Assembly: GCA_017473615.1 (NCBI GenBank)
Contig: JAFUKL010000011.1
Coordinates: forward strand, 1 to 64,000
Direction: 5' to 3'
DNA length: 64,000 nucleotides
From: Muribaculaceae bacterium
GTDB taxonomy: Bacteria > Bacteroidota > Bacteroidia > Bacteroidales > Muribaculaceae
Under the pieces are notes generated by a model that was not told the origin of the DNA, did no database searches, and worked only from the letters and a program-made list of their open reading frames with translations. Shown piece after piece: positions 55,371 through 59,637 of the stretch (its first letter is position 1; each line of letters begins with the position of its first letter). Made by a program: the position numbers and the translations under genes.

Positions 55371-57170
55371 TTATAAATTCTTTAAACCTTCTAATATTAT
55401 TTTAGCCTTCGCCTTACCCACAACAGATGATATTTCTTTTTCATCGGCTTCTCTCAATCTCTTCAGACTTTTAAAATGCTTTATCAAGGTGTTACGGGTA
55501 ATCTCACCTACACCTTTTATCCCATCAAGAACTGATACAGTCTGCCCCTTACTACGTCGATTCCGGTGATGAGTGATACCAAAACGGTGAGCCTCATCGC
55601 GCAAGCGCTGAACGACTCGCAATGATTCACTGTTTTTATCTATATATAAGGGTACACTATCACCGGGAAAATATATTTCCTCCAAACGTTTGGCAATACC
55701 CACAAGAGCTACCTTTCCTCTTATTCCCATTTCGGTAAATGCCTCAACCGCAGCACTCAACTGACCTTTACCTCCATCCACAATTACTAATTGCGGCAAT
55801 TCCTCCCCTTCTGTCATCAGCCGAGTGTATCTGCGCGTGAGCACCTCTTTCATAGAAGCAAAATCATCAGGTCCCACCACAGTCTTTATATTGAAATGAC
55901 GATAATCTTTTTTAGAAGGTACAGCATCCTTAAAGACAACGCATGAAGCCACAGGATTAGTCCCCTGCATATTGGAATTATCAAAACATTCTATATGTCT
56001 CGGGAGAACCTCAAGTCTGAAATCACGTTGCATGGTAGCCAATACCCGCATTGTGCGCTGCTGCGGATTAAGTTTTTCCGAACGTGCCAATTTATCGATC
56101 ATATATTGTTTGGCATTCTTCAAGGCGATTTCCATAAGTTTCTTTTTATCCCCTATTCTGGGGACTGTAAACAGCACACCACTCATCTCCGTTTCAGGCA
56201 CGGCAGGAACTATTATCTCTTTCGGTTTTCGACCGAATTTAGCAATGATTTCAGCTATTGCCATTGACAACAGTTCTTCATCGCTTTCCTCCATTTTTAC
56301 ACTATATTCCAATGTGAGACATTGCACAATCGAACCGTTGCGCAAATGCAAGTAGTTTATATACGCATTCTTGTCATCACGATGCACGGCAAAAACATCA
56401 ACATCCGTGATGTGAGTACTCACTATAACTGATTTTGCCCGATATTTCTCGACCAAATCGTATTTTTCTTTTACTATCTGCGCTTCCTCAAATTTTAATT
56501 CTCCGGCAAGTCGTCCCATTTCATCGACAAGAAAATCACACAATTGTTGTGTATTACCATTTAGAATCTGTCTGATTTCATCGATAAATTTTCTATACTC
56601 ATCTGGTGTAATATTACCAGTACAACACCCCATACAGTTCTTTATGTGATATTGTAGACACAACCCGATTTTATGTCGGTCTATAGCTTCTTGAGTTATG
56701 ACATGCCTACACGTCCTTATAGGATAAAGTTCCCGTATCAATTCTATAACAGTTCGAGCTACTCCTACATTAGAATAAGGGCCATAATACTTGGCACCTT
56801 TCGATGGAGTTTCACGCGTGAGAAAGACCCGCGGATACAGTTCGTTGGTAACACATATCCACGGGTATGACTTATCATCTTTCAACAGCACATTGTAACG
56901 CGGCTTATACTCCTTTATCAAGCTATTCTCAAGATGAAGAGCATCTTCTTCCGAATCAACTACAATATACTTTAAATCACATATATTTCTTACTAAAACA
57001 TTGGTGCGAGCAACGCTATGCACCCTGTTAAAATAAGAACTGACCCTACGTTTTAACCGCTTTGCCTTACCCACATAAATAATTTTCCCCTCGCTGTCAA
57101 AATACATATATACACCGGGAGAATCGGGCAACAGCCCCACTTTCATCATCAGGTTTTCACGAGCATCCAC
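55371..57170 (-). CDS. uvrC: Excinuclease ABC subunit C
   Basis: 599 residues. An N-terminal GIY-YIG nuclease (about 13-95; SPGVYMYFDSEGKIIYVGKA) makes the 3' incision. A Cys-rich linker (CLQYHIKNCMGCCTG) and a UVR-type helical segment that binds UvrB (about 205-240) follow. The RNase H-like 5'-incision domain contains IECFDNSNMQGT and VDGGKGQ. A helix-hairpin-helix tail (about 555-599) completes it. It is in the nucleotide-excision repair pathway and is cotranscribed with apt and dtd, with gaps of 10 and 5 bp. Confidence 0.97.
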   Translation of the reverse strand: MDARENLMMKVGLLPDSPGVYMYFDSEGKIIYVGKAKRLKRRVSSYFNRVHSVARTNVLVRNICDLKYIVVDSEEDALHLENSLIKEYKPRYNVLLKDDKSYPWICVTNELYPRVFLTRETPSKGAKYYGPYSNVGVARTVIELIRELYPIRTCRHVITQEAIDRHKIGLCLQYHIKNCMGCCTGNITPDEYRKFIDEIRQILNGNTQQLCDFLVDEMGRLAGELKFEEAQIVKEKYDLVEKYRAKSVIVSTHITDVDVFAVHRDDKNAYINYLHLRNGSIVQCLTLEYSVKMEESDEELLSMAIAEIIAKFGRKPKEIIVPAVPETEMSGVLFTVPRIGDKKKLMEIALKNAKQYMIDKLARSEKLNPQQRTMRVLATMQRDFRLEVLPRHIECFDNSNMQGTNPVASCVVFKDAVPSKKDYRHFNIKTVVGPDDFASMKEVLTRRYTRLMTEGEELPQLVIVDGGKGQLSAAVEAFTEMGIRGKVALVGIAKRLEEIYFPGDSVPLYIDKNSESLRVVQRLRDEAHRFGITHHRNRRSKGQTVSVLDGIKGVGEITRNTLIKHFKSLKRLREADEKEISSVVGKAKAKIILEGLKNL

Positions 57171-57180
57171 GGCTACTCTA

Positions 57181-57714
57181 TCAATATTTAATCAAAGATG
57201 TAATTTCGGCATCGGCGGGGAAAGCACGTCTGCCATTTAAAATCGAAAGTTCTACAATAAAATTAATATAAACTTTCTTGGGGTTCATACTTTTTACAAG
57301 TTCATAAGCAGCAGCCATTGTACCACCGGTTGCAAGAAGATCGTCATGAAGCACTACGATATCATTTTCATCAATAGCATCGCGATGAATTTCTATTGTA
57401 TCCGTACCATACTCCTTTGCATAAGTTTTATTAATAGTAATAGCAGGCAGTTTACCCGGTTTACGCAAAGGAACAAAACCGGCATTCAATTCATAAGCAA
57501 GAATAGATGCGCCTATAAACCCTCGAGCCTCGATACCCACCACCTTGGTTACTCCAAGATTCTTATACATATCCTTTAAGGTTTCTCCTATCTCATGCAA
57601 CGACTGACTGTCTTTCAGAGCTGTTGTAAGATCCCTAAACAAAATTCCCTTTTGCGGAAAATCAGGAATATCACGAATCAAACTTTTCACTCTTTCCATT
57701 TTGTTCTTATCCAT
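57181..57714 (-). CDS. apt: Adenine phosphoribosyltransferase
   Basis: 177 residues. It makes AMP from adenine and PRPP in purine salvage. The PRPP-binding loop is VVLHDDLLATGGTM, and GIEARGFIGAS is the conserved APRT segment. The length is normal. mnmG lies upstream; the 45-bp spacer between them contains the parS site at 57736-57751. Confidence 0.97.
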   Translation of the reverse strand: MDKNKMERVKSLIRDIPDFPQKGILFRDLTTALKDSQSLHEIGETLKDMYKNLGVTKVVGIEARGFIGASILAYELNAGFVPLRKPGKLPAITINKTYAKEYGTDTIEIHRDAIDENDIVVLHDDLLATGGTMAAAYELVKSMNPKKVYINFIVELSILNGRRAFPADAEITSLIKY

Positions 57715-57735
57715 GTTATATATCGTTTTAGTTAA

Positions 57736-57751
57736 TGTTCCACGTGAAACA
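57736..57751. promoter_or_regulatory. parS centromere site
   Basis: TGTTCCACGTGAAACA, an exact match to the 16-bp consensus TGTTNCACGTGAAACA recognised by ParB. It is intergenic, between mnmG and apt. No other parS match was found in the window, and no parA/parB genes are present here. Confidence 0.88.
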
Positions 57752-57759
57752 ATTTTAAT

Positions 57760-59637
57760 TTATCTTCCTAATAATAGGAGCAATATATTAATATCACTTG
57801 GCGATATTCCGGGTATTCTGGCAGCTTGTGCTACAGTTTCCGGATCAATTTTTTCCAATTTTTGACGCGCCTCTGTCGATATAGCTTTTATTTCACTATA
57901 CTTCAATTTTCCTTTCAGTTTTACATGCTCCAAACGCATCACTTTTTCTGCAATCATCTTTTCCCTGTCAATATAACCCTGATACTTTATCAGAATTTCT
58001 GCAGCTTCAATAATTTCATCTCGACGCTGCTTATCCAATGTCGACAAAAAGCTCTTCAGAGGTTGTATAACATCTGCAAGCATATTTATATCTAATTGTG
58101 GTCGAAGTATCAACGCATGCAATTTACACCCTTCTTTCAAAGGAGATGTTCCCAACCGAATCAAATCCTCATTAATCAGTGACGGCTTAACTGAAAATTC
58201 TTTACAGAAATCTACCAAGCGATCCCTTTGTTCTCGTTTTTCAAGCATCAACCTGTAACGCTCTTCCGTTGCCAATCCTAATTTATAGGATTTTTCGGTA
58301 AGACGCATATCCGCATCATCTTGACGAAGCAATATTCGGTATTCAGCGCGCGAGGTAAACATTCTGTATGGCTCATCCACACCCTTTGTAACCAAATCAT
58401 CAATCAACACACCAATATACGCCTCATCTCTACTCAATATAAACGGCTCTCCACCTACAATATTCAAGTGCGCATTTATACCGGCTATAAGTCCTTGTCC
58501 GGCAGCTTCTTCATATCCCGTCGTTCCATTAACCTGACCCGCAAAAAACAAATTTTTCACCAACTTGGTTTCAAGCGTATGCTTTAATTGTGTAGGGTCA
58601 AAGAAATCATATTCTATAGCATAACCCGGGCGATAGATCTGAACATCGGATAAAGCCGGAATCTTTTGCAATGCATTAAACTGTACATCCAAGGGAAGCG
58701 ATGAAGAAAAGCCATTCACATAGTATTCGTTGGTTGTTTCACCCTCCGGCTCTAAAAACAACTGATGAGAATCCTTATCGGCAAATGTAACAATCTTCGT
58801 CTCAATGCTCGGGCAATAACGAGGACCTATACTTTTTATCTGCCCATTATAAAGAGGTGAATCCGGTAATCCCGCTCTCAAAATTTCATGTACATCGGAA
58901 TTTGTATTCACAATCCAGCACGGTCGTTGTTTCAACTCCCTCTTTACATCAGGGAGATAAGAAAATTTGTGAAAATCGTCATCACCCTCTTGTTTTTCGG
59001 CTAATTCAAACTTTATAGATCGAGCATCGATTCGTACCGGTGTTCCGGTCTTCATACGCTCAGCCCTGAAACCCAACTCTTTAAGTTGTTCGGTTATGCC
59101 ATGCGACGCAGGTTCCGAAATTCTTCCGCCTCTGATTTGGACACGCCCTACATGCATAAGTCCGTTAAGAAAAGTACCTGCCGTTAGAACAACAGCCTTA
59201 GCAGCAAACTCTACTCCAAACGCTGTTTTTACTCCTACAACAGTCTCATTCTCAATAATAAAACCTATTGCATCATCCTGCCATAAATAAAGATTCGGTG
59301 TATTCTCTATTATGTTTCGCCACTCAGCCATAAATTTCATTCTGTCGCTTTGCGCACGTGGACTCCACATAGCAGGTCCTTTTGAACGATTAAGCATTCT
59401 AAACTGAATAGCCGATCGATCTGTTACGATACCCATCTCTCCACCTAAGGCATCTATTTCGCGCACAATCTGACCCTTAGCAATCCCACCAACAGCGGGA
59501 TTACAGCTCATCTGTGCTATCTTATTCATATCCAATGTGATAAGTAATGTAGAAGAACCTAAATGAGCCGCAGCACATGCAGCTTCACAACCGGCATGAC
59601 CGGCACCTATCACTATTACATCATAATCAAATTTCAT
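57760..59637 (-). CDS. mnmG: tRNA uridine-5-carboxymethylaminomethyl modification enzyme (MnmG/GidA)
   Basis: 625 residues. With MnmE it installs the cmnm5 group on wobble U34 of certain tRNAs. The FAD-binding Rossmann motif is VIGAGHAGCEAACAAA (residues 10-25). The MnmG signatures SCNPAVGGIAKGQIVREIDALGG and the C-terminal helical domain are present. Length is normal. ybeY precedes it by 15 bp. The gene is often close to the chromosome origin, which fits the adjacent parS. Confidence 0.98.
   Translation of the reverse strand: MKFDYDVIVIGAGHAGCEAACAAAHLGSSTLLITLDMNKIAQMSCNPAVGGIAKGQIVREIDALGGEMGIVTDRSAIQFRMLNRSKGPAMWSPRAQSDRMKFMAEWRNIIENTPNLYLWQDDAIGFIIENETVVGVKTAFGVEFAAKAVVLTAGTFLNGLMHVGRVQIRGGRISEPASHGITEQLKELGFRAERMKTGTPVRIDARSIKFELAEKQEGDDDFHKFSYLPDVKRELKQRPCWIVNTNSDVHEILRAGLPDSPLYNGQIKSIGPRYCPSIETKIVTFADKDSHQLFLEPEGETTNEYYVNGFSSSLPLDVQFNALQKIPALSDVQIYRPGYAIEYDFFDPTQLKHTLETKLVKNLFFAGQVNGTTGYEEAAGQGLIAGINAHLNIVGGEPFILSRDEAYIGVLIDDLVTKGVDEPYRMFTSRAEYRILLRQDDADMRLTEKSYKLGLATEERYRLMLEKREQRDRLVDFCKEFSVKPSLINEDLIRLGTSPLKEGCKLHALILRPQLDINMLADVIQPLKSFLSTLDKQRRDEIIEAAEILIKYQGYIDREKMIAEKVMRLEHVKLKGKLKYSEIKAISTEARQKLEKIDPETVAQAARIPGISPSDINILLLLLGR

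Follow-up and report, generated by a model that had tools for sequence, protein, structure and literature searches.

Chromosome segregation by ParABS has been described in the model species Bacillus subtilis, Caulobacter and Pseudomonas, in which the parS sites form a cluster, with parAB beside them and dnaA near. After docking at parS, ParB closes into a CTP clamp and slides, and the resulting complex is moved by ParA. The Noc-binding site (NBS) is also short and palindromic, and the protein that binds it is ParB-like; the NBS consensus differs from that of parS. In the same phylum as the organism dealt with here are Bacteroides caecimuris and Muribaculum intestinale, whose parS sites are covered by the OMM12 Hi-C study (PMC10197239). 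The portion of that report consulted gives 1 to 10 parS sites per genome across 12 species, places the origin by parS together with GC skew, states that the origin does not track dnaA systematically, and credits neither B. caecimuris nor M. intestinale with a homologue of the known condensins. Unlike the present work, that portion neither names the gene adjoining each parS site nor gives the conservation of the sites across relatives. According to the part of PMC7022226 consulted, origin positioning is said to need no more than a single parS near oriC, and this fits a genome with one site such as that described below.

The locus under study lies in the window, the whole stretch of 64,000 nucleotides that was analysed, which represents bases 1-64000 of a contig (C50) of 80,233 bases. 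The contig belongs to a Muribaculaceae-like MAG of 2,006,793 bases in 51 contigs, 78.08% complete, and the best named match to its MnmG is found in a Muribaculaceae MAG (L034), with 91% identity. The relevant features are as follows.

57736..57751, no strand assigned: parS, predicted ParB loading site, 16-bp imperfect palindrome TGTTCCACGTGAAACA.
57715..57759, no strand assigned: mnmG-apt spacer of 45 bp, which holds parS; the letters beyond the 16 bp vary among relatives.
57760..59637, minus strand: mnmG (gidA), TIGR00136, 803.9 bits; the neighbour of parS in most Bacteroidota loci examined.
57181..57714, minus strand: apt, adenine phosphoribosyltransferase, TIGR01090, 194.2 bits; the usual, but not constant, downstream neighbour.
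55371..57170, minus strand: uvrC, TIGR00194, 542.7 bits; the gene after apt.

The 16 bases at 57736-57751 are a canonical parS of the ordinary, well-known kind. They agree exactly with TGTTNCACGTGNAACA, the palindromic 16-bp consensus of chromosomal parS, and the sequence-only reading, which had described a fit to the ParB-binding consensus at the fixed positions and a location within a 45-bp spacer between mnmG and apt, is borne out in both respects. The spacer is noncoding, and within it the site stands 8 bp beyond the mnmG stop and 21 bp ahead of the apt ATG on the minus strand. The palindrome is imperfect in that 7 of its 8 symmetric positions pair, the exception being positions 5 (C) and 12 (A). 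This is the same 16-bp consensus as in the ParABS systems of B. subtilis, Caulobacter and Pseudomonas, quoted as TGTTTCACGTGAAACA in the portion of PMC10197239 consulted, and the likeness to these systems extends to a Spo0J-family ParB and to an origin-side position in three relatives. The layout differs from that of the model species, since one site was found here rather than a cluster, parAB are off-site, and dnaA is far away in four relatives (G091, G172, G486 and G489). We hold with high confidence that the site is the chromosomal parS of this gut Muribaculaceae bacterium, probably the sole one, and the predicted point of ParB loading; its earlier identification as a canonical parS is supported and was right in substance.

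The exact 16-mer is present as a single copy in the 2,006,793-base, 78% complete assembly, and a search that allowed up to two mismatches gave one further place, TGTTCCACATGAAAGA on contig C37. On single-base composition, about 0.001 exact copies would be expected by chance in DNA of the size of the assembly, and about 1.6e-8 in the spacer. A few copies had been anticipated, but only one was found in this 78%-complete assembly; the accompanying expectation that copies would not be scattered did hold.

The partner proteins are encoded on another contig, C42, in agreement with the remark that parAB are absent from the window. The identification had been made to depend on the genome having a parB, and one TIGR00180 gene (180.7 bits) is found on C42 in the 78% complete genome. 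ParA (L228:2483-3277) lies directly upstream of ParB (L228:3318-4220), the adjacent pair spanning L228:2483-4220 and carrying the Pfam domains AAA_31, ParB_N and HTH_ParB, with ParB_C also present in ParB. The ParB protein contains a GERRYRA stretch and, when compared with solved structures, is matched best by Spo0J (1vz0, E 5.8e-53), with Noc and further ParB chains next. Where the Noc chain reads GKGQSTIAN and TERHARA, this ParB has GKKRATIAN and MGHARA, with R and G, respectively, in place of the Q and R of the Noc chain, and we take these stretches to include specificity positions. No match to SMC_prok_B above the family cut-off was found in any of four genomes searched (the genome under study, G091, G486 and B. 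fragilis G489), which gave weak matches only.

Within the family, the exact 16-mer occurs in 112 of 198 genomes, one copy in each, and its reversed control in none. The form TGTTYCACGTGRAACA, with up to one mismatch, is found in 193 of the 198, and at this tolerance it was not found in G154, G162, G167, G171 and G187; the reversed control at one mismatch matches in 18 of the 198. Exactly one place within one mismatch is seen in 151 of these genomes and two or more in 42. Thirty of the 112 exact-match loci were retrieved (L004-L033) and, having been chosen by motif, they test position only and not sequence. The site is between mnmG and apt in 28 of the 30; in L026 it is at a contig end, beside mnmG, and in L013 (G194) it is 2.8 kb 5' of mnmG, with another copy in G194 at the 3' flank of mnmG. 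Both position and sequence are tested by nine family loci retrieved via MnmG (L034-L042), and the site is present in all nine. Here the 16 bp vary only at positions 5 and 12 (Y/R) and in the last base of L042, and the spacers range from 38 to 200 bp, with turnover of the letters around the site. The suggestion that the placement between mnmG and apt is kept in relatives therefore stands for 28 of the 30 family loci, but the conserved partner is mnmG and not the mnmG-apt pair.

The association extends through the order. A scan with MnmG, which does not select for the motif, gave at least 581 matches, the best 80 of which were kept, with titles from Bacteroidales and close relatives. Within 1.3 kb 3' of mnmG, exact TGTTYCACGTGRAACA is present in 62 of these best 80 loci (of at least 581), and with up to one mismatch in 77, including 75 within 250 bp. 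Elsewhere in the 993,790 bases of the 80 loci there are 11 more sites, and the reversed control gives 0. Two of the misses among the best 80, L055 and L062, have sites 3.6-4.9 kb further on, and L093 is the sole miss for which no site was found. In four Parabacteroides loci (L044, L046, L052 and L054), the site is still by mnmG with no apt hit adjoining, and several Prevotella-like loci have a second site after apt. On the evidence of sequence comparison, parS is kept by selection in relatives, being present at 77 of the best 80 MnmG loci (of at least 581) and in 193 of 198 family genomes.

Exact TGTTYCACGTGRAACA is found in 180 of 295 genomes drawn from the order, with up to 4 copies each and none for the reversed control, and was not found in 115. 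Six pairs of sites about 1.9-2.0 kb apart in this draw (L235-L240) were opened, and in all six mnmG is flanked on both sides. Among 31 genomes re-examined out of the 115 without exact TGTTYCACGTGRAACA, 18 contain NGTTNCACGTGNAACN and 13 were found to be without even this form. At the 18 NGTTNCACGTGNAACN loci the motif flanks mnmG in 16, falls within mnmG in one (L262) and is elsewhere in one (L256). ParB scores over the cut-off in 27 of the 31 re-examined genomes, including 9 of the 13 without any motif. The L262 case is that of G205, where a parS-like 14-mer is inside the mnmG reading frame (L262:1008-2990) and not beside the gene.

Beyond the order, an exact form of the motif is present in 144 of 198 genomes drawn from the phylum. 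The 29 motif-bearing loci obtained from this draw in addition to the one under study all belong to genomes labelled 'same class', and the site is at mnmG in 22 of them, 18 on the 5' side and 4 on the 3' side; mnmG was not seen by the site in the remaining seven (L269-L272, L276, L277 and L287, the last near a contig end). For the other classes, one motif-bearing genome was taken from each of 25 families labelled 'same phylum', with the first site considered in each. This first site is beside mnmG in 17 of the 25, and mnmG was not seen within loci of up to 3 kb in eight (L334, L342, L344-L348 and L351). At 22 of 29 and 17 of 25, the tie to mnmG is frequent, though with exceptions. A position of parS by mnmG through much of the Bacteroidota, with parAB and dnaA wandering, has good support in the order and is often seen in the other groups examined.

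These comparisons make it very improbable that the parS has become a relic, carried along by linkage while segregation is nucleated at another place. Such a history would accord with the 78% completeness of the genome, as other copies could be in the missing parts, and with the 13 of 31 re-examined order genomes that have no recognisable copy, 9 of which keep a ParB over the cut-off. However, the MnmG-retrieved family loci L034-L042 keep the 16 bp, save for the Y/R positions 5 and 12 and the last base of L042, as the surroundings turn over, and 151 of the 198 family genomes contain just a single place at up to one mismatch. There is likewise scant probability that the palindrome acts in regulation or termination, as an operator or hairpin of the mnmG-apt unit whose likeness to parS is incidental. 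The palindrome does lie between co-directional genes, 21 bp ahead of the apt start, and as RNA the 16-mer could form a 6-bp stem; a 32-nt RNA piece on its own folds somewhat better than shuffles (z -1.35, with 18 of 200 shuffles equally good), whereas for a 76-nt RNA the folding is on a par with shuffles (z 0.25). The motif stays by mnmG where apt is not found, and in other groups it occurs on the 5' side of mnmG or flanks the gene at either end. These changing neighbours, together with the lack of a terminator-like site at the palindrome, where no stable hairpin with a T run after it was seen on the transcribed strand, and of any Rfam family matching the region, led to rejection of the terminator, RNA-element and operator readings. 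A Noc-binding site, although likewise a short palindrome, does not fit, since the sequence is that of the parS consensus and only one TIGR00180 gene, with no Noc-type paralogue, was found in the 78%-complete genome; the ParB also differs from the Noc chain.

The relation of the canonical parS to the replication origin was assessed in relatives, with parB and dnaA searched for in ten and GC skew sampled in five of these. In G091, G486 and B. fragilis NZ_CP018937 (G489), the interval containing parS is also where the best skew split locates the origin switch, and the fine skew minimum is, respectively, 44 kb, 33 kb and 104 kb from parS. Round the circle, the distance to parS in the same three chromosomes is 0.64 Mb, 1.27 Mb and 0.95 Mb for dnaA, and 0.97 Mb, 0.42 Mb and 0.78 Mb for parB; across G091, G172, G486 and G489, dnaA is 0.64-1.6 Mb and parB 0.37-0.97 Mb from mnmG-parS. 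The skew is weak in G172 (20-kb samples) and G451 (4-kb samples only), and their best splits are not at parS. In the contig under study, negative skew sets in at about 40 kb and persists up to the last base, 80,233, where the minimum is reached with no switch. This suggests an origin to the right of parS, separated from it by 22.5 kb or more, although gene direction may contribute to the skew; mnmG points away from the implied origin. Given a MAG of 78% completeness and a contig that stops 22.5 kb beyond parS without a switch, origin proximity in this genome is only indirect. The assignment of the window to an origin-proximal region of segregation nucleation thus finds agreement in three of five relatives, with the other two having no usable skew and the host genome giving indirect indications.

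In G486, no more than about 0.2-0.3 Mb separates dnaA from the skew terminus, and dnaA is therefore a poor marker of the origin there. At G486:C1:1838454 the same chromosome has three relaxed DnaA boxes in a stretch of 400 bp, near the skew minimum and about 34.5 kb from parS; this cluster is a possible oriC, and the only, modest, DnaA-box candidate.

From these observations we infer that ParB binds, loads and slides at parS and that segregation proceeds from it, the site probably being, as predicted from its sequence, a ParB-loading centromere. A dimer of the ParB encoded with ParA on the other contig, acting as a CTP-switch clamp, would dock on the palindrome, close with CTP, and slide into mnmG and apt. 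The sliding would build one partition complex, and ParA would then move this complex and the origin region apart after replication. With no Smc above the cut-off in the four genomes, the complex may work via ParA alone or via an unrecognised condensin.

In evolutionary terms, we lean slightly towards the proposal that the Bacteroidota centromere has been anchored to mnmG through much of the history of the phylum, while parAB, dnaA and other neighbours have left. In the family, a single 16-bp site, without a recognisable Smc in the few genomes checked, would then be the whole nucleation point. This site may descend from an ancient mnmG(gidA)-parAB-parS cluster at the origin, from which the genes, but not the site, were lost. 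The firm tie between parS and mnmG, while parAB, dnaA and apt move, may be new. No report of parS tied to mnmG in Bacteroidota was found among titles and opening abstracts, and the Livny 2007 survey of parS may already state it.

Many gut Bacteroidota are known only as fragmented MAGs, and for these a rule of the type 'find mnmG, find parS, probably origin side' would mark the origin-proximal contig, a marker that dnaA does not provide in the chromosomes tested. The rule would also give a single site to delete or tag, and a one-site ParABS without a recognisable Smc would be a simple case in which to ask what ParA and ParB can do alone.

Some members of the family have more than one site. In genus g18 of the family draw, most genomes differ from the bulk of the family in having two places at up to one mismatch. 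G189 has ten perfect copies of TGTTCCACGTGGAACA on ten contigs (L245, L246 and L319-L326), one of them at mnmG-apt (L325) and others within long stop-free frames. L245 and L246 share an 87-bp stretch (74%) round the site, and L319 is similar just before the site, so some of the copies may ride on a repeat. G189 shows a dispersed expansion of parS, where most of the family have one site.
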